From: Selenomonas sp. F0473
GTDB lineage: Bacteria > Bacillota > Negativicutes > Selenomonadales > Selenomonadaceae
DNA: 64,000 bases
Assembly: GCF_000315545.1 (NCBI RefSeq)
Contig: NZ_JH992902.1
Location: 1,260,470 to 1,324,469, forward strand
Reading direction: 5' to 3'
The position numbers were made by a program, and so were the translations under genes. A model generated the notes under the pieces. It searched no databases, was not told where the DNA came from, and saw only the letters and a program-made list of their open reading frames with translations. Positions within the stretch are counted from its first letter, which is position 1, and each line of letters opens with the position of its first letter. Of this stretch, positions 45,003-54,355 are shown in pieces.

Positions 45003-46142
45003 TTAGACGGTGAACTTCTGCGTGGAGACTGCACGCAGAGCCGCGCGCTTATCCTCCTTCGCCGCACCGTCTGCCGCTGTGAGGAGGCCAATGAGCCGCT
45101 CGAGGTCGTCCGCGGAGAAATAGCTGATCTCCAGCTTCCCCTTGCCCTGCGCCCGCCCTTCTTTGATGGCGACCTTAGTCCCAAGGCTGCGTGTGAGGCG
45201 CTCCTCCGCCTCGCGGATGAAGATATCCGGTGCGGGGCGTTTCGCCTGCGTTTCAGTCGTTTTTTTGAGGATATTCGGGTCTTTTAAAAGGCGTTTGACA
45301 AGGGCCTCCACGCCGCGCGCCGAGAGTTCGCGCTCTTGGATGTACTCGGCTGCCTCGCTCTGGAGGGCCTTGCTCTCGAGGGCAAGGAGCGGGCGTACCT
45401 GGCCCATGGTCAGGACGCCGTTCGCGAGAAAGGCCTGTACGGACGCGGCAAGGCGCAGGAGGCGGACGCTGTTGGCAATCGCCGAGCGGCTGCGCGCAAC
45501 GCGGCGAGCGAGCTGTTCCTGCGAGAGTTTGAACTCGCTGAGGAGACGCTCGTAGGCGTGTGCCTCTTCGATGGGATTCAGATCCTCGCGCTGGAGGTTC
45601 TCGATGAGCGCCATCTCTGCAAGTTCCGTATCGGTCGCCGTACGGAAGACTGCGGGCACCTCTTTGAGGCCCGCGAGTTTCGCCGCGCGCAGGCGGCGTT
45701 CACCCGCGACGAGTTCGTATGCGCCGCCCCCGATGTCGCGGACGATGAGCGGTTGGAGGATCCCGTGCCGCGCGATGGACTCACGCAGCTCCTCGAGGGC
45801 ACCCTCATCGAACTCGCGGCGCGGCTGGAACCTGTTCGGCCGTACGGCAGCAACGGCGAGCATCGCGGGGGTGCCTGCGGCTGCGGCCTGCTTTGCGGGC
45901 GGCGTACCAGCGGCAGTCTTTGCCCGGGGCCCGGCTTTTCGTGTGCCGTCTCCGCTCTTTTTCTGTGCGGAAGCCTTTGCGGCCCCCTGCGCCGCCGCGG
46001 CTGGTTTTGGTGCGACGCCGCTCTTCTCCTCCGCGGGAACCGCGCTCCCGGCCGCAGTCTCCGCGGCCGGATGCAGCAGGCTGTTTTTCCCGAGGCCGAA
46101 GGCTCCGAGTCCGCGGCCGAGCCCGTGTTTATTTTTCTTCAC
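45003..46142 (-). CDS. parB: Chromosome partitioning protein ParB/Spo0J
   Basis: The 379-residue CTPase/DNA clamp: start KHGLGRGLGAFG, an Ala/Lys-rich linker (about residues 20-90), the N-terminal domain PNRFQPRREFDEGALEELRE, the GERRLRAA CTP motif, the VIENLQREDLNPIEEA-type segment (here ALIENLQREDLNPIEEAHAY), the HTH that reads parS (FKLSQEQLARRVARSRSAIA) and a C-terminal dimer domain. It overlaps parA by 14 bases. Four parS sites lie within 5 kb. Confidence 0.96.
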   Translation of the reverse strand: MKKNKHGLGRGLGAFGLGKNSLLHPAAETAAGSAVPAEEKSGVAPKPAAAAQGAAKASAQKKSGDGTRKAGPRAKTAAGTPPAKQAAAAGTPAMLAVAAVRPNRFQPRREFDEGALEELRESIARHGILQPLIVRDIGGGAYELVAGERRLRAAKLAGLKEVPAVFRTATDTELAEMALIENLQREDLNPIEEAHAYERLLSEFKLSQEQLARRVARSRSAIANSVRLLRLAASVQAFLANGVLTMGQVRPLLALESKALQSEAAEYIQERELSARGVEALVKRLLKDPNILKKTTETQAKRPAPDIFIREAEERLTRSLGTKVAIKEGRAQGKGKLEISYFSADDLERLIGLLTAADGAAKEDKRAALRAVSTQKFTV

Positions 46143-46893
46143 GCTGCATCACCTCCCTTGCCAGTGCGATATAGGTCTCCGCGCCGCGCGACGTGATGTC
46201 GTACGAGGTAATCGGCTGACCGAACGACGGCGCCTCCGAGAGGCGGACGTTGCGCGGGATCAGGGTCTCATAGAGCGCTGTCCCAAAGACGGCGCGCACC
46301 TCGTCAACGACCTGCGTCGCGATGCGCGTGCGGCCGTCGTACATAGTCATGACGACCCCCTGGACGACGAGCGCGGGGTTGGCGCTCTCCTGCACGAGGC
46401 CGATGGTGTTCATGAGCTGCGCGACCCCCTCGAGCGCATAAAATTCGCACTGAATCGGAATGAGGACGGAGCGGCACGCGGTGAGGGCGTTGAGCGTTAA
46501 AAACCCGAGCGACGGCGGGCAGTCGATGAAGATGTAGTCATAATCGCGTGCAATCTCTCTAAGCGCGTCGCGCAGGCGCGTCTCACGCCGTTCCAGCCCC
46601 GCCAACTCTACCTCGGCTCCCGCGAGCTCCATATTTGAGGGCAGGATATCCACACGATAGTCGGACGCGATGCGCGTGTCCCGCAGACTGCGGCCGCCGA
46701 TGAGCACTTCATAGGTAGTCGCTTGAAGGGTATTTTTATCTATGCCAAAGCCGCTGGTCGCATTCCCCTGCGGATCGATATCGACAAGCAGGACGCGGCG
46801 CTTCGCGCGCGCGATAGCAGCGGCAAGATTGACCGCCGTCGTCGTCTTGCCGACGCCGCCCTTTTGACTTGCAATTGCGATGATATGTGCCAC
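46129..46893 (-). CDS. parA: Chromosome partitioning ATPase ParA/Soj
   Basis: A 254-residue deviant-Walker ATPase: ASQKGGVGKTTTAVNLAAAI at the N-terminus, DIDPQGNATSGFG, and FIDCPPSLGFLTLNA. It lacks an N-terminal HTH, as in chromosomal Soj. With ParB it segregates the origin region. It starts 37 bases after pfkA and overlaps parB. Confidence 0.96.
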   Translation of the reverse strand: MAHIIAIASQKGGVGKTTTAVNLAAAIARAKRRVLLVDIDPQGNATSGFGIDKNTLQATTYEVLIGGRSLRDTRIASDYRVDILPSNMELAGAEVELAGLERRETRLRDALREIARDYDYIFIDCPPSLGFLTLNALTACRSVLIPIQCEFYALEGVAQLMNTIGLVQESANPALVVQGVVMTMYDGRTRIATQVVDEVRAVFGTALYETLIPRNVRLSEAPSFGQPITSYDITSRGAETYIALAREVMQREEK

Positions 46894-46930
46894 AGGATCA
46901 TCCTTTCCGGCTTCTTCTTTGTATGCTGGG

Positions 46931-47893
46931 TCAGCACAGCACCTTCGCGAGGCGGAGGTACTCCGGATCGAGCTTCTTCTTGTTGTTCACGGCATCGTAA
47001 AGATTGACCGAGACGACATGACCGTTGCTGTAACCGAACACCACCCCCGAAAGCCCCGAGATGAGCGAGAGCGCCGCCTGCTCGCCGAGCTGGCTTGCCC
47101 GTACGCGGTCGATGACCGACGGGGCGCCGCCGCGCTGGATATGGCCGAGGACGGAGACGCGCGTCTCGATATCGGTATGCTGCGCAATGTAGTCGCAGAC
47201 ATCCTGTCCCCGCGCCGCACCTTCGGCGACAACAATGAGGATGTAGCGTTTTCCGCGTTCATAGGCTTCGGATAGGCTGTCGGTAATCTGCCGGAGGTCG
47301 AATTCCTCCTCCGGCACGATAATATACTCTGCGCCGCCCGAGATACCCGAAACGAGGGCAAGCCATCCGCAGTTGCGCCCCATGACCTCGAGGACGATCA
47401 CGCGGCGGTGCGCGGAGGCGGTGTCGCGCAGCTTGTTGATGGCGTCGATGATCGTATTCGCCGCAGTATCGCAGCCGATCGTGTAGTCCATGCCCCAAAC
47501 GTCGTTGTCTATCGTGCCCGGCAGGCCGACGATGGGGAACCCGTATTCTTCCGAAAGGCGCTGCGCGCCGCGCAGGGAACCGTCGCCGCCGATGACGCAA
47601 AGGCCTTCGATGCCGCGCTGAATGAGGTTCTCATACCCAAGCCGGCGCCCCTCCGGCGTCTGCCACTGTTCGCAGCGTGCCGTGCCGAGGAATGTGCCGC
47701 CGCGCTGAATGATATCGCCGACGTCCTTGGACTCGAGTTCGCGCAGGCGCTCCTCAATGAGACCCTGATATCCGTCGCTGATGCCCCAAACCCGCACGCC
47801 CTCGTAGAGCGCCGTCCGGGCGACGGCGCGCGCCGCGGCATTCATGCCCGGACTGTCTCCTCCGCTCGTCATGACCGCAATGCTCTTTAACAT
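46931..47893 (-). CDS. pfkA: ATP-dependent 6-phosphofructokinase
   Basis: The 320-residue glycolytic enzyme phosphorylates fructose-6-phosphate. Motifs: TSGGDSPGMNAAARAVAR (nucleotide binding), GGTFLGTARCEQW, VIGGDGSLRGAQ, catalytic GLPGTIDNDVWGMDYTIGCDTA and EVMGRNCGWLA. The Gly-Gly-Asp-Gly pattern indicates an ATP-dependent rather than PPi-dependent enzyme. The ATG at 47893 gives the usual length; the upstream extension is not supported. It is upstream of parA in the same direction, an unusual pairing that may tie it to origin-proximal dosage. Confidence 0.95.
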   Translation of the reverse strand: MLKSIAVMTSGGDSPGMNAAARAVARTALYEGVRVWGISDGYQGLIEERLRELESKDVGDIIQRGGTFLGTARCEQWQTPEGRRLGYENLIQRGIEGLCVIGGDGSLRGAQRLSEEYGFPIVGLPGTIDNDVWGMDYTIGCDTAANTIIDAINKLRDTASAHRRVIVLEVMGRNCGWLALVSGISGGAEYIIVPEEEFDLRQITDSLSEAYERGKRYILIVVAEGAARGQDVCDYIAQHTDIETRVSVLGHIQRGGAPSVIDRVRASQLGEQAALSLISGLSGVVFGYSNGHVVSVNLYDAVNNKKKLDPEYLRLAKVLC

Positions 47894-47975
47894 CGCAATT
47901 CCCCCTGCCCATTTGCAAAATACACACGCTCCGCCTGCATCCATTTTCCTAAACTTCCTTCATCATATCACAAAT

Positions 47976-48009
47976 GACAAAAAAAATCCCCTATTTTTTC
48001 AGGGGATTG
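47976..48009 (-). terminator. Terminator at the end of the dnaB transcript
   Basis: AATCCCCT (47985-47992) pairs with AGGGGATT (48001-48008). Reading leftward it is followed by a T-run (plus-strand A-run before 47985). Repeat copy D and a parS site lie between the dnaB stop and this terminator. Confidence 0.75.
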
Positions 48010-48011
48010 GA

Positions 48012-48027
48012 CGTTTCACGTGAAACA
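48012..48027. promoter_or_regulatory. parS site 1
   Basis: CGTTTCACGTGAAACA differs from the consensus parS TGTTTCACGTGAAACA at one outer base. Intergenic, 1.9 kb upstream of parB. Confidence 0.9.
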
Positions 48028-48097
48028 ATTTGGAGGCGAGGCTTTATGCGGGACAATTTTATTCGGCGCCAACTGCAAATATTCTACTTCAAGATGC

Positions 48098-48230
48098 AGT
48101 CTAAGCGACACGGAAGTTTCGATGCGTGGCGAGGAATGACGAGAACGCGAGGGAAGGTGTAGTTAAAAGCCTACGTCGACCGAAGCGTTTGACGACATGA
48201 CGATGCCGGGCGCGAAAATCCCGCGTCACG
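48098..48230 (-). repeat. Dispersed 3'-end palindromic repeat, copy D (after dnaB)
   Basis: Read leftward it begins 2 bases after the dnaB stop with ACGTGACGCGGGATTTTCGCG and ends with CGAAACTTCCGTGTCGCTTA. The centre is more diverged than in copies B, E and F (GAGAACGCG instead of GAAAAATCC), but GTAGTTAAAAGCCTACGTCG is kept. Confidence 0.85.
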
Positions 48231-48231
48231 T

Positions 48232-49554
48232 TTATGGTTCGCGGGCAAGGTCGCGGAACCTGGTATACTCCTTTTGGAAATACAGCTTGACCGTATCGGT
48301 CGCGCCGTTGCGGTGTTTGGCGATACTGAGCTCCGTAATGTTCGCGTTCTCCGTGTCCTGATTGTAGTAATCCTCACGATAGAGGAACATGACGATATCG
48401 GCGTCCTGCTCGATGGACCCGGACTCGCGCAGATCGGAGAGCATCGGCCGCTTGTCCGAACGGCCTTCGGTCGCACGCGAAAGCTGCGAAAGGACGACGA
48501 TCGGCACGCTGAGCTCACGGGCAAGTATCTTCAGCGAGCGCGTCATCTCCGCCACGGCAAGTGTGCGGTTCTCCACACGCCCCGGCGCCTGGATCAGCTG
48601 GAGGTAGTCTATCGCGATAAGATCGAGTCCGTGCTCCGCCTTGAGGCGCCGCGCACGCGAGCGAATATCCGTGACCGTCGTGCTGCTCGTATCGTCGAAG
48701 TAGAGTTTGGTCTTCATGATGCGGTCGGCCACCTTCACGAGGCGCTCCCACTCCGCATCATCGAGCTCGCCGCGCGCAAGATGCGTCGCGTCAATCTGTC
48801 CCTCCGCGCAGAAAATACGATGCATGAGCTGCTCCCGCGGCATCTCGAGGGAGAAGAAGGCCACCGTTTTCCCCTCCAGCGCCGCATGTGCGGCAACATT
48901 TAGGACAAACGCCGTCTTGCCCATGGCCGGACGCGCCGCCACGATGATGAGGTCCGATTTCTGGAGGCCCCGGGTCACGCTGTCGAGGCGCGCAAGGCCC
49001 GTAGAAAGGCCCGTAATCCCGCCCTTTGACTTGGACAGTTCATTCAGACGGTCTACGGCGTCAAAGACGACACGCTTCGCAGGAATGAACGACGCCGTCG
49101 TCTGCCCGCCCGCAATCGCGAGGATCTTACGTTCCGCCTCACTCAGTTGTACGGCAATCTCATCGCCGGCCTCATAAGCCGCGCCCGCAATCTCCGTACT
49201 CACATCGATAAGACTGCGGAGGATCGCTTTTTCCTTGACGATCTTCGCATAATGTTCTAGATTCGCCGTGCTTGGCACGGCGTTCGTGAGGTTCGCAAGG
49301 AAGGAAATTCCGCCGACCTGTTCGAGGAGGCCGGATTTCCTCAGAGCCTCTGTTACCGTAACGATATCTACGGGTTCTCCCGCGCGAACAAGCCCCTCCA
49401 TCGCGTCAAAGGCGGCGCGATGCGCCTGACGATAGAAGTCCTCGGCACGCAGGAGTTCGAGGGCCTGCGTTGCGGCGCTGGGCTTCAGCATCATCGCGCC
49501 GAGCACAGACAGTTCCGCCTCAATATTCTGCGGCGGTATACGGCCTTCCGGCAT
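48232..49554 (-). CDS. dnaB: Replicative DNA helicase DnaB
   Basis: The 440-residue hexameric helicase: N-terminal domain (PPQNIEAELSVLGAMML), RecA-like core with Walker A AARPAMGKTAFVLNVA (about residues 209-224), Walker B LIAIDYLQLI, VVLSQLSRATEGRSDKRP and RESGSIEQDADIVMFLYRED. Length and motifs are complete. It lies 36 bases downstream of the lon-type gene in the leftward rplI-lon-dnaB cluster. A dispersed repeat begins right after its stop. Confidence 0.97.
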   Translation of the reverse strand: MPEGRIPPQNIEAELSVLGAMMLKPSAATQALELLRAEDFYRQAHRAAFDAMEGLVRAGEPVDIVTVTEALRKSGLLEQVGGISFLANLTNAVPSTANLEHYAKIVKEKAILRSLIDVSTEIAGAAYEAGDEIAVQLSEAERKILAIAGGQTTASFIPAKRVVFDAVDRLNELSKSKGGITGLSTGLARLDSVTRGLQKSDLIIVAARPAMGKTAFVLNVAAHAALEGKTVAFFSLEMPREQLMHRIFCAEGQIDATHLARGELDDAEWERLVKVADRIMKTKLYFDDTSSTTVTDIRSRARRLKAEHGLDLIAIDYLQLIQAPGRVENRTLAVAEMTRSLKILARELSVPIVVLSQLSRATEGRSDKRPMLSDLRESGSIEQDADIVMFLYREDYYNQDTENANITELSIAKHRNGATDTVKLYFQKEYTRFRDLAREP

Positions 49555-49590
49555 AGTTTTTCTCCTTTCGTCGATATCTGCTGCGGAGGC

Positions 49591-51924
49591 TCATGCAGGC
49601 TCCGCCGTTTTATGTTCCGACGGCAAAGTTTCCTTGGGCGGCTTTTCTTTCCACGAGTCGTCCGTAAAGAGGACGGCAAAGGCATCCTCCGCGCGTTTCA
49701 GGCGATGAATTTCAAGATCAAGATGCGCCTCGGGAATATCCTTCTCATTCTCCCACGGGATGATGAGCGTGGTAATCCCCGCCTGGCGCGCGCCGTACGC
49801 CTTCTCAAAAACGCCGCCGACCGGCTTGATCTCTCCTTGGAGCGAAATCTCGCCCGTAACCGCGACGTCCTGGCGAATCGGCACGCCGGTCACGGCGCTG
49901 ACAATTGCGGCAAGAATTGCCGTTCCCGCGCTGGGCCCGTCGATGTTGCCGCCGCCGATCGCGTTGACGTGGATGTCGTAGTCATGGAGATCGCGTCCCG
50001 TGAGGCGGCGCATCACCGCCGCCGCGTTAAACACAGAGTCCTTTGCCATGCTGCCCGCCGTTTCGTTAAACCGCACGGTCCCTTTTCCTTTTTCAGCGGC
50101 AGGGAAGGCGACCGCCTCGATCTCAATGATGGAACCGAGGAACCCCACGACACCGAGGCCGAAGACACGGCCGACCGCAGGCGTGTCGGACGCCTTTTTC
50201 CGTCCAAACGGATAGAGACGGCTCACCTGTGCCACCTCGTAAATATCGCCTCTTGTGACAACAACATTGAGATTTTCGGTGCCTGCAAGAGCGCTTGTTT
50301 CACGTGAAACAGGCTCATCCGGGTTCGATATGTGCGCAGCATTCGACGCCGTCTGCACGGTGGAAGAGGGAGCCTCTCCGTTATCGGGAGTGCCGCACGC
50401 CGCAGCTCTATGCGCACCGCCCGAATCGGCGGCCCCTGAAGACATTGTTTCACGTGAAACGTCCGCGGGCGCGCCGTTTCTTACAGTTTCTTCCGTGCCG
50501 CGAGCGGCGTCCGGCGCGGTGTTTTTCAGTTCATGTTTTTTTTGCAGGCCAAATGGCCGACGGGCCGTCTCCGCATCGGCATTCTCCGGTGTTTCACGTG
50601 AAACAATTCGGGCGATCTCATCGTCGCCGAGGCGGTTGAGGGCGAGGCTATAGGCGTCGGCAAGGATATTAATCGCTTTGCGCCCCTCGACGGTGTACTC
50701 GCTGATGAGCTCTGCCGCGCCGGGTGCGAGCGTCACATGCAGGCGCTTTGCCGCATTCTCCACGATCCGCAAGATATGCGCGGGCGTCAGCGGCTCAAAG
50801 TAGATCTCCGCACAGCGCGACCTGAGCGCGGGGTTAATATGGTCCGCATCCCGCGTTGTCGCCCCGATCAACACGAAATCCGCCGGTGCGCCCTCCTCGA
50901 ACAGTTTCTTGATATAGGGCGGCACCCGCTTATCGTCGGGGTCGTAGTACGCCGACTCAAAGTATGCGCGCTTATCTTCAAGCACCTTGAGAAGCTTATT
51001 CTGCAGCATCTCGTCCATCTCTCCGATCTCATCGATGAAGAGGATGCCGCCGTGCGCCTCAGTCACGAGTCCAGGTTTCGGTTCCGGCACGCCGCTGTCC
51101 GCGAGGTTTTTCTGTGCTCCTTGGTAAATCGGATCATGTACCGAGCCGAGCAGGGGATTCGTCATGTCGCGCGGGTCCCAGCGCAGCGTCGTCCCGTCCG
51201 TCTCCACGAACGGAGCGCTCTCGGCAAAGGGGGACACCGCGCGCTTTTTCGCGGCCTCGAGCACAAGGCGCGCTGCCGTCGTCTTTCCGACGCCCGGCGG
51301 ACCATAGAGCAGGAGATGTTGGGGGTAGGGGGAACTGAGTTTTGCCATGAGCGAGCGCACGGCCCGCTCCTGCCCGACGATCTCCTCAAAGTTCTGCGGG
51401 CGCAGGAGCTCCATCACCGACTGTGTAAGCCGCACGTTTTCGAGGGCCTCGAGATTCTCCCGTTTCTTCTTGTCGTGCGGCGACTCCGCTCCGGGGCTCT
51501 CCTCGGAGATTACCTGCCGCCGGATATCCTCCACGTACTCCTCATGGTCCTGCTCGAGCTTTTCGCTGACTTTGCGCTCGATGCGGTCCTCGAGGTCGCG
51601 GCGCGCGCGGATATCCGCGAGCTGCTCCGTCATATGCATGAGGATCTCCGGAATCTCCGCCTCTGCCGGCGGCGGCGAGATCAGGGGGTCCTCCTCGAGG
51701 ATGCGCATGAGGGCGAGCACGCGCTCACGGCGGTCCTCCGACCGCATCAGCTTCATCGCGTTCATCTTGCCCGCTTCTATGACGAGGTTCTCCGTCCCCA
51801 TCGTATCTGCAAGCATACGAAAGATAGCGGCAATCTCAATGTCAAGCGCCGCCTCCTGAGAAGGAGACGGCGGCACATCGGATGTACCGCCGTTTGATCC
51901 AAACAAATCCTTAAAAAAAGACAT
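49591..51924 (-). CDS. Lon-family ATP-dependent protease (LonC/spore-Lon type) with parS-bearing linker
   Basis: The 777-residue protein has an N-terminal helical region (about residues 30-160), an AAA domain with Walker A YGPPGVGKTTAARLV (about 209-223) and Walker B ILFIDEIGEMDEM, and a C-terminal Lon protease domain with the catalytic Ser in NIDGPSAGTAIL and Lys in GGVFEKAYGARQAG. It lacks the LonA substrate domain, as in the family annotated as spore-type Lon. Between the two domains is a disordered insert (about residues 440-545) that makes it longer than usual. Three parS sites fall in this insert, each translated as VSRET at residues 441, 489 and 539. Located between rplI and dnaB. Confidence 0.9.
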   Translation of the reverse strand: MSFFKDLFGSNGGTSDVPPSPSQEAALDIEIAAIFRMLADTMGTENLVIEAGKMNAMKLMRSEDRRERVLALMRILEEDPLISPPPAEAEIPEILMHMTEQLADIRARRDLEDRIERKVSEKLEQDHEEYVEDIRRQVISEESPGAESPHDKKKRENLEALENVRLTQSVMELLRPQNFEEIVGQERAVRSLMAKLSSPYPQHLLLYGPPGVGKTTAARLVLEAAKKRAVSPFAESAPFVETDGTTLRWDPRDMTNPLLGSVHDPIYQGAQKNLADSGVPEPKPGLVTEAHGGILFIDEIGEMDEMLQNKLLKVLEDKRAYFESAYYDPDDKRVPPYIKKLFEEGAPADFVLIGATTRDADHINPALRSRCAEIYFEPLTPAHILRIVENAAKRLHVTLAPGAAELISEYTVEGRKAINILADAYSLALNRLGDDEIARIVSRETPENADAETARRPFGLQKKHELKNTAPDAARGTEETVRNGAPADVSRETMSSGAADSGGAHRAAACGTPDNGEAPSSTVQTASNAAHISNPDEPVSRETSALAGTENLNVVVTRGDIYEVAQVSRLYPFGRKKASDTPAVGRVFGLGVVGFLGSIIEIEAVAFPAAEKGKGTVRFNETAGSMAKDSVFNAAAVMRRLTGRDLHDYDIHVNAIGGGNIDGPSAGTAILAAIVSAVTGVPIRQDVAVTGEISLQGEIKPVGGVFEKAYGARQAGITTLIIPWENEKDIPEAHLDLEIHRLKRAEDAFAVLFTDDSWKEKPPKETLPSEHKTAEPA
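50296..50311. promoter_or_regulatory. parS site 2 (inside the lon-type gene)
   Basis: Perfect TGTTTCACGTGAAACA, in frame as VSRET at residues 539-543 of the protease. Confidence 0.93.
50446..50461. promoter_or_regulatory. parS site 3 (inside the lon-type gene)
   Basis: TGTTTCACGTGAAACG, one outer mismatch, in frame as VSRET at residues 489-493. Confidence 0.9.
50590..50605. promoter_or_regulatory. parS site 4 (inside the lon-type gene)
   Basis: Perfect TGTTTCACGTGAAACA, in frame as VSRET at residues 441-445. Confidence 0.93.
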
Positions 51925-51927
51925 AGA

Positions 51928-52371
51928 TTATTCCTTACGAACGTGAATCTTAATCGTTGTCGCAATGCTCGGATGAACCTTGACGACCGCCTCGTAAAGG
52001 CCTTCTCCCGTCACCTCTCCGCGGATGGCGATTTTGCGCCGATCCACGTCGATGTTGCGCTTTTTGAGGGCCTCCGCAATATCCTTGCCCGTCACGGCGC
52101 CGAAGAGGCGGCCGTTCTCGCCGATACGCACGGGGATGTCCACCTCGACTTTTTCGAGCTGCGCAGCCATCAGCCGTGCCTCGTCCGCCGCCATTGCGTC
52201 CTTGCGGGCCTTTGCCCCCGCCTGTGCCTTTGCCACGTTCACATTCTCTGTGCTTGCGGGCAGCGCGAGTTTTTTCGGCAGAAGAAAATTGCGCCCGTAG
52301 CCGTCCGCGACCTCGACAATCTCGCCCTTTTTCCCAATATTTTTAACGTCAGCCTGCAGTATCACTTTCAC
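51928..52371 (-). CDS. rplI: 50S ribosomal protein L9
   Basis: 147 residues. Family start MKVILQADVKNIGKKGEIVE with the L9 signature G-x2-GRNFLLPKKLA and the C-terminal rRNA-binding domain. I set the start at the GTG at 52371 because L9 proteins begin M-K-V-I-L; a GTG three codons earlier is too close to the GAGGAG ribosome site. The gene begins within the end of gdpP (23-base overlap) and ends 3 bases before the lon-type gene, so translation of the three is linked. Confidence 0.95.
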   Translation of the reverse strand: MKVILQADVKNIGKKGEIVEVADGYGRNFLLPKKLALPASTENVNVAKAQAGAKARKDAMAADEARLMAAQLEKVEVDIPVRIGENGRLFGAVTGKDIAEALKKRNIDVDRRKIAIRGEVTGEGLYEAVVKVHPSIATTIKIHVRKE

Positions 52372-54355
52372 TGTGGTCACTCTCCTCTATATACGCTCTT
52401 GCCTGTTCGATAACGCCGGCACGCACCGCGCTGAGCGGGACGCCTTTCACTTGTGCGCCGGCCACGTTTGCGTGTCCGCCGCCGCCGAAATGCTCCATAA
52501 TCACCTGCACGTTCATCTCGCCCGATGCGCGCGCGCTGATCCCCACCGTATCGCTGTCAAGCTGGAACACATAGATGCTCATACGCACCCCGTCCACACG
52601 CAGCATACCGTCCGCCGCCTGCGCCGCGATGATCTGCCCGTTCTGGAGCTGCTCCGGGATACTGCCGACGATGAGCCCGCCGGGGAAGAACTCCGCATTC
52701 GCTTTTGCGCGTGCGAGCGCCACCGTCGTCTCATAGTCGCTCTGGAAGAGGCTCCTGACGAGCACGGGGTCCGCTCCCGCGCGGCGCAGGTATGCCGCCG
52801 CGTCGAATGTGCGGATCCCCGTATTCACGTTGAAATTTTTCGTATCCACGACGATTCCGGAATAGAGCGCCGTCGCCTCAAACTTCGTCGGCCTGATATT
52901 ATCGCCGAAATACATCAGCAGTTCGGTCACGAGTTCGCTTGCCGAACTCGATGCCGTCTCGATATAAACCAGCAGGGGATTCTTCACAAAATGTTCACTG
53001 CGGCGGTGATGGTCGATCACGACCACCTTCGGAATGCGCTCGAGGAGCGTCGGATCCGCAAGGATGTGGGGGATATGTGCATCCACCACGACGAGCAGAG
53101 CCGATGCCGACGAAACGCTCACGATATCGCCGGCACGGACGAAGAGATCCGCGTAGATCTCCTCCTTCATGAGCACATCCTCAAATCGATCGATGCCCTC
53201 GTTCATATCGCTGAGCACGATGCGCGCTTTTTTCCCAAGCGCCCGCGCCATGCACGCGACGCCCAGCGCCGCGCCGAAGCAGTCGTAATCCTCGTTGTGA
53301 TGCCCCATGACGTAGACCTCGTCCGCGCTCTCCATGATATCGCGCAGGGCGTGCGCCACAACGCGCGCCTTCACGCGCGTGTGTTTCTCCACGGCCTTGG
53401 CCTTCCCGCCGAAGAACTGCGTCTTGCCCGCGATGTCAAGCGCCACCTGATCGCCGCCGCGGCCGAGCGCAAGGTCCAGTTTCGCCTCCGCCTCCTCGCC
53501 GAGTTCCTTCAGCGACTGGTCGGCGGCGAGCGAGAGACCGATGGAGAGCGTCACGGGGAGGCCCTTCGTATTCGTCAGTTTGCGTACCTGATCGAGAATA
53601 TCGAACTTCTCCGCGATCGCATGATCGAGCGCCGCACGGTCGAGGAGAGCCACGAACTCACCGTCCGAAACGCTGCGCATGAAGCCGCCGAGACTGTTCA
53701 TCCAGGCGTCGAGGCGCTCGCGCACGGCAAGTAGGAGCATCGAGCGCTCCGCCTCCGTCTGCCCCTGCATGATCTCGTCAAAATTATCGAGTTGGATGTA
53801 GAGAAGGGCAGTGCGGCTCGCATGAAAACGCTCTCGGAGCGTCGTGAACTCCGTCTGGTCCTCCACATAGAACGCCATGAGCGGATCCAGCTGCGGCGGC
53901 GTCGGGAGCGGCCGGTGGTAAACATGGTAAGTGCGCCCCGCATGCGAGAATCGGTACTCGCCCTCGGTGCCCCATACCGGGTCGACCACAAGCTCCTGCC
54001 AAAAATCCGCAACCGCGGTGCCCTGTTCCGGTTCCACGCCGCCGAGATACTGTCCCAGCTGATGATTGCACCATTCCAGATGCCCGTCCTTGCTCACCAC
54101 AAGGATCGCCTGCGGCAGACGGTCCACGGCGTAGTTCATGACATTATTAACATTGCGAATAATGCTCATACAATAGCGTTCAAATCGCCGTTCTCTGTCA
54201 TGACATCGTTCCCACGCAAATGCGGCAAGCGCCGCCCACAGGACGAGCGCCGCCATGCCGACGTAGGAATTGTAACAGAATGTCACAAGCGCCAGCGCGA
54301 GCATAACGATCAGATGGATCGTCAGATCGATCCACGCGGATAAGTTCCGCGGCAT
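52349..54355 (-). CDS. gdpP: c-di-AMP phosphodiesterase GdpP (DHH family)
   Basis: A 668-residue membrane enzyme: two N-terminal helices (about residues 10-50), a PAS-like region (QAILVVSKDGHLEWCNHQLGQYL), a degenerate GGDEF domain (FVALLDRAALDHAIAEKFDIL; no GGDEF active motif), and the DHH-DHHA1 phosphodiesterase (VMGHHNEDYDCFGAALGVAC, VVIDHHRRSEHF, HFGGGGHANVAGAQ). It degrades c-di-AMP and so affects wall and potassium homeostasis. Gene order DUF2232-gdpP-rplI is the usual Firmicutes one. Confidence 0.93.
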   Translation of the reverse strand: MPRNLSAWIDLTIHLIVMLALALVTFCYNSYVGMAALVLWAALAAFAWERCHDRERRFERYCMSIIRNVNNVMNYAVDRLPQAILVVSKDGHLEWCNHQLGQYLGGVEPEQGTAVADFWQELVVDPVWGTEGEYRFSHAGRTYHVYHRPLPTPPQLDPLMAFYVEDQTEFTTLRERFHASRTALLYIQLDNFDEIMQGQTEAERSMLLLAVRERLDAWMNSLGGFMRSVSDGEFVALLDRAALDHAIAEKFDILDQVRKLTNTKGLPVTLSIGLSLAADQSLKELGEEAEAKLDLALGRGGDQVALDIAGKTQFFGGKAKAVEKHTRVKARVVAHALRDIMESADEVYVMGHHNEDYDCFGAALGVACMARALGKKARIVLSDMNEGIDRFEDVLMKEEIYADLFVRAGDIVSVSSASALLVVVDAHIPHILADPTLLERIPKVVVIDHHRRSEHFVKNPLLVYIETASSSASELVTELLMYFGDNIRPTKFEATALYSGIVVDTKNFNVNTGIRTFDAAAYLRRAGADPVLVRSLFQSDYETTVALARAKANAEFFPGGLIVGSIPEQLQNGQIIAAQAADGMLRVDGVRMSIYVFQLDSDTVGISARASGEMNVQVIMEHFGGGGHANVAGAQVKGVPLSAVRAGVIEQARAYIEESDHSESDTAG

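Follow-up and report, generated by a model that had tools for sequence, protein, structure and literature searches.

Putative chromosomal parS sites kept in frame within the lonC gene of oral Selenomonas and Centipeda

The window, by which we mean the whole stretch of 64,000 nucleotides from Selenomonas sp. F0473 that was analysed here, contains a Lon-family protease gene that carries three parS-like palindromes, a replicative helicase gene, a fourth palindrome downstream of the helicase gene, and the genes of a partition system. The relevant features are the following:

45003..46142, minus strand: parB (Spo0J-type; ParB_N, HTH_ParB and ParB_C domains), the presumed reader of parS
46129..46893, minus strand: parA (Soj-type; PF13614 AAA_31, 216 bits)
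46931..47944, minus strand: open reading frame that we take, from recognition of its sequence and from synteny, to be a pfkA-like 6-phosphofructokinase gene; downstream of parS site 4
48012..48027: parS site 4, one mismatch (first base C), intergenic, in the dnaB-pfkA gap
48232..49554, minus strand: dnaB, replicative helicase (TIGR00665, 556 bits), between the lonC sites and site 4
49591..51924, minus strand: lonC, Lon-family ATP-dependent protease, intact, 777 aa (TIGR02903 spore_lon_C, AAA and Lon_C domains)
50293..50574, minus strand: DNA for the predicted disordered linker of LonC, residues 451-544 (AlphaFold2 pLDDT < 50 and linker alignment)
50296..50311: parS site 3, exact 16-mer, LonC residues 539-543 (VSRET)
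50446..50461: parS site 2, one mismatch (last base G on the plus strand), LonC residues 489-493 (VSRET)
50590..50605: parS site 1, exact 16-mer, LonC residues 441-445 (VSRET), at a position homologous in all 14 species of the genus
51928..52380, minus strand: open reading frame directly upstream of lonC on the same strand, presumably rplI (recognition of the sequence and synteny)

The ParB encoded in the window is predicted to be an ordinary Spo0J-type protein, with Spo0J 6sdk as its best solved relative (E 4.5e-52) and the GERR motif kept. The protease belongs to the LonC family: it matches TIGR02903 with 920 bits against a curated cut-off of 679 and has the GPPGVGKTT and DGPSAG motifs. The initial annotation had placed a disordered insert between the AAA and protease domains, and an AlphaFold2 model built from a 50-sequence alignment is in agreement with this, giving a pLDDT of about 30 for residues 451-544, which connect the AAA lid to the protease domain. 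The model as a whole is of modest confidence (mean 73.5, pTM 0.53), and the disorder call alone is used here. In the same model, site 1 coincides with the end of a predicted helix (residues 434-444), at the edge of the AAA lid.

A search of the window with the 16-mer TGTTTCACGTGAAACA, allowing up to three mismatches, recovers all four palindromes reported in the initial annotation (at 48012, 50296, 50446 and 50590), two of them exact and two with one mismatch. At this threshold, 0.10 sites are expected per window by chance, and four sites were reached in none of 100 shuffles. The three lonC sites are all in frame and are read on the minus strand as VSRET, starting, as had been claimed, at residues 441, 489 and 539. 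In the whole genome (2,065,801 bases), parS with up to three mismatches occurs at these four places only, whereas a control pattern, reversed but not complemented, occurs at three places under the same conditions; the exact 12-mer core is found at four places, and that of the control at none. The sites (1308481-1311074 in genome coordinates) are 44-47 kb from dnaA (1354942), taken as the origin marker, in a 2.07-Mb genome, and cognate parA and parB genes are present in the same genome, as is expected of a chromosomal ParABS centromere. By this sequence evidence, every predicted high-affinity parS site of the chromosome lies in the lonC linker or in the dnaB-pfkA gap, approximately 44 kb from dnaA.

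The same arrangement is found throughout the genus set, which comprises 14 species of oral Selenomonas and Centipeda, namely, the window species and 13 others (among them Selenomonas artemidis, S. flueggei, S. felix, S. infelix, S. noxia, S. massiliensis, Selenomonas sp. FOBRC6, Selenomonas oral taxon 892 and Centipeda periodontii). In all 14 species, the lonC linker contains parS, with one to four sites each and 33 sites in total at two mismatches or fewer, 30 of which are exact 16-mers. All 33 share one frame, that of VSRET, and none is in the frame in which the palindrome would give FHVK. The exact 14-mer is present in two to four copies per whole genome (46 over the 14 genomes, 31 of these in lonC), and every copy is located either in lonC or in the dnaB-pfkA gap. 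The dnaB reading frame ends 7-47 bases before the gap site in 11 species of the set, and the distance is larger in the other three (S. artemidis, S. infelix and the window species). Within the lonC of the window, the sites start 150 and 144 bases apart, so that the spacing of about 150 bases given in the initial annotation holds there; as a rule, a fixed spacing of this size is ruled out by the range of 42-150 bases (from residue positions) across the genus.

Several observations bear on the possibility that the main role of these sites is gene control, such that ParB bound in lonC would lower or time the transcription of lonC and dnaB and thus tie the supply of the helicase to partition. The rplI, lonC and dnaB genes are co-directional, with parS sites within lonC and others that mostly follow closely on the dnaB stop codon, and transcription has reportedly been profiled in parA and parB mutants of Pseudomonas aeruginosa (PMC3909081). 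Nevertheless, the species differ in how many sites they have and in how these are spaced, and, the sites being the only parS of the chromosome, a partition role would be needed in any case. We therefore regard gene control as an improbable main role, although effects on lonC and dnaB transcription are possible.

Given that the sites are translated, either the peptide or the DNA word could be what is conserved. All 31 VSRET peptides are encoded by GTT TCA CGT GAA ACA; under the codon use of twelve genes in the window, the probability that a single VSRET is written GTT TCA CGT GAA ACR is 1.8e-4. The linker sites are partly descended from one another, so that the counts are not independent and 31 of 31 overstates the number of events. 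Site 1, however, is enough by itself to carry the argument for the DNA: it is homologous across the 14 species and forms an 18-nt run, ATTGTTTCACGTGAAACA, that is invariant in all of them; the next longest invariant run in the gene is 8 nt, and in the codon alignment of the 14 lonC genes the third base is invariant at only 50 of 480 invariant residues. Furthermore, the base immediately before VSRET is T in 32 of the 33 sites, as against 18% T at the third positions of the gene, and the residue that holds this T varies over nine amino acids (I, N, D, T, H, P, A, V and S), while the bases farther outside the palindrome are variable among sites. Two drifted sites read ISRET and ASRET and retain the rest of the palindrome. 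Taken together, the fixed codons, the invariant 18-nt run and the fixed preceding T indicate that the DNA word, rather than the peptide, is what is kept in the linker. The comparison of linkers suggested in the initial annotation thus comes out in its favour, with a perfect parS written in fixed rare codons kept in 14 of 14 species while the surrounding linker drifts; the opposite pattern, VSRET kept and the palindrome lost by synonymous change, was looked for and was not seen in the 14 species.

A functional LonC motif, for docking, processing or as a hinge, with the palindrome as a by-product of codon choice, would account for the frame and peptide common to all 14 species and would fit the position of site 1 at the end of a predicted helix. 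However, it explains neither the rare codons fixed at synonymous positions, nor the T fixed outside the peptide over nine different residues, nor the ISRET and ASRET variants in which the remaining palindrome is preserved. In addition, VSRET was not found at the linker position in LonC proteins outside the genus in the linker alignment. We consider a peptide motif very unlikely.

Outside the genus, none of 118 LonC genes (some species being counted twice) contains parS, which rules out a general feature of negativicute LonC and confines the arrangement to one genus. The parB gene lies beside lonC in all 14 genomes of the genus set and at all nine named loci; in the relatives, i.e., other genera of the family, no parB was detected in the vicinity of lonC. 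The placement of parAB-pfkA beside dnaB-lonC-rplI (45003-52380 in the window) appears to be a genus-specific rearrangement of the partition locus. In the relatives, parS sites are mostly found around parAB and pfkA, and most of the 80 that were inspected lie outside conserved coding sequence; approximately 11 of the 80 overlap supported open frames, several of them solely upstream of the likely start. Among 399 sampled genomes of the phylum, 20 have close parS pairs, 26-56 bases apart, and within the open frames of those 20 genomes no pair with such a gap is clearly inside a gene body. In the longest frame associated with a pair (L231), both sites are at the far N-terminal end and are read in two different frames.

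Palindromic elements that insert in frame into genes are known in Rickettsia, where they are longer mobile repeats scattered over the genome, and parS could have entered lonC as part of such an element by happenstance. The likeness consists in palindromic DNA held in frame in coding sequence, and a member of the same family (G019) does have a dispersed repeat with a parS core in 52 copies. In the genus set, by contrast, there are no scattered copies elsewhere in the genomes, the flanks of the 16-mer differ between sites, and the three lonC sites of the window share no repeat beyond the 16-mer itself; neither the related copies nor the conserved flanks expected of a mobile element are observed. 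A mobile origin of the array is accordingly hard to credit.

The repeat of G019 (Selenomonadaceae; L243-L262 and L176) deserves separate mention. Its 52 exact parS 14-mers are scattered over many contigs; they form the perfect core of a conserved repeat unit some 40 bases long and often occur as pairs 120-142 bases apart. Two further genomes, G041 and G034, contain 40 and 10 copies of the 14-mer, respectively.

Within the genus, the position of site 1, directly behind the AAA lid, is shared by all 14 species, whereas the additional sites differ in number and position. The species closest to that of the window is S. artemidis (support 100/100), which has three tandem copies of 99 bp; their overall identity is 71-75%, yet each palindrome is exact or has one mismatch. 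On the tree of the 14 species, several branches of which are weakly supported, the number of sites changed at least seven times, and linker length rises with the number of sites (Spearman 0.78 over the 14 species, with kinship ignored). With respect to the total number of sites, in G006 (L040) one lonC site is accompanied by two sites in a dnaB-pfkA gap of 970 bases; in the two genomes most closely related to it, lonC has two sites and the gap has one, which again makes a total of three.

The initial annotation proposed that carrying DNA sites seems to be the reason why the insert exists. This proposal is supported in part only: the correlation of length with site number agrees with it, but the linker of C. 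periodontii has not expanded, and long linkers lacking parS occur elsewhere. Specifically, the C. periodontii linker is 31 aa long and has one parS, that of S. ruminantium is 32 aa long and has none, and LonC linkers of 79-226 aa without parS are found in other genera; the latter weaken linker expansion as a proof of a parS-related purpose. These lengths, in particular the short linkers with and without a site and the long ones without parS, suggest that parS came into a linker that was permissive for it and increased in number there.

The linker might even be merely permissive, so that parS landed there by chance in an ancestor and was kept owing to the need of ParB for a nearby site, the length of the linker and the number of sites having no meaning of their own. 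Apart from the parS-free linkers of other genera, this reading draws on C. periodontii, with its one site in an unexpanded linker, and on G006, which is short of one lonC site and has a second site downstream, such that the location seems interchangeable. It is harder to reconcile with the retention of site 1 in 14 of 14 species, with the recurrence of extra sites and the associated increase in length, and with the location of the relatives' parS mostly outside conserved coding sequence. We see it as a serious contender, although one that falls somewhat short of probable; it shares the centromere role and disputes the shaping of the linker alone, and hence overlaps with the explanation that we favor, so that the probabilities of the two do not sum to one. 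The stronger proposition, that LonC serves as a centromere vehicle, the length and sequence of its linker being shaped in evolution chiefly by how many parS sites are required and at what spacing, we advance tentatively and with some doubt. If it is true, the growth of a disordered protein region is driven by an essential DNA element.

The explanation that we favor, and consider highly probable, is that the parS sites in the lonC linker are the working parS of the chromosome, kept as DNA inside lonC; a single stretch of DNA thus appears to be both gene and centromere. We propose that the ancestor shared by all members of the genus acquired parAB-pfkA as a neighbor of rplI-lonC-dnaB, and that a single parS was fixed in it where the inter-domain linker of LonC begins, a place that would tolerate any in-frame sequence. 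Some lineages would then have gained or lost further in-frame sites, at least in part by tandem duplication in multiples of three bases that lengthened the linker, with selection acting on the DNA word and the protein only having to tolerate VSRET. Each site would serve as a loading point for ParB-CTP clamps, and the partition complex would be built as these slide along lonC-dnaB. We infer the loading of ParB and the role in segregation, which are most likely by analogy with established ParABS biology, as well as the reason for the copy number. Against the array as a requirement, C. periodontii manages with one lonC site and one intergenic site, and in P. aeruginosa a single origin-proximal parS reportedly suffices (PMC4368675).

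In most respects, the sites resemble those of other chromosomal ParABS systems of the Spo0J/Soj type, being 16-bp palindromes that are proximal to the origin and adjacent to parAB and are accompanied by a normal ParB. The genus differs in that two thirds of the sites are in one gene and in one frame, within a linker of variable length in which they have multiplied. DNA uptake sequences of Neisseria and Pasteurellaceae, which are dispersed in hundreds to thousands of copies, also in coding regions, are similar in that a short word is kept for a job at the DNA level and is tolerated as a fixed peptide in permissive regions; the genus, in contrast, has two to four sites within about 5 kb as a predicted centromere. 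Intragenic parS as such is already known: in P. aeruginosa, nine of the ten predicted sites are within coding sequences and, in the passages compared, are likewise parS inside genes under both codes, whereas an in-frame array in one protein linker is not described in those passages (PMC4368675). What appears to be new is a genus-wide parS array in a single protein linker, kept as DNA and multiplied in frame. A search of the open-access literature for lonC with parS or Selenomonas with parS returned nothing relevant.

The locus is a clean example of how a short DNA-binding word can dictate both the residues and the length of a protein region, and the 14 sequenced species provide natural parS copy numbers from one to four. 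It therefore makes testable how many parS sites a chromosome needs and how close together they may sit, and also whether disordered linkers can act as parking places for DNA elements that do not fit in short intergenic gaps. The longest of the parS-free linkers, the 226-aa linker in the metagenome-assembled genome RGIG9261 (L128), is very acidic and internally repeated (DYYESF..., YDDYDNEELER...).
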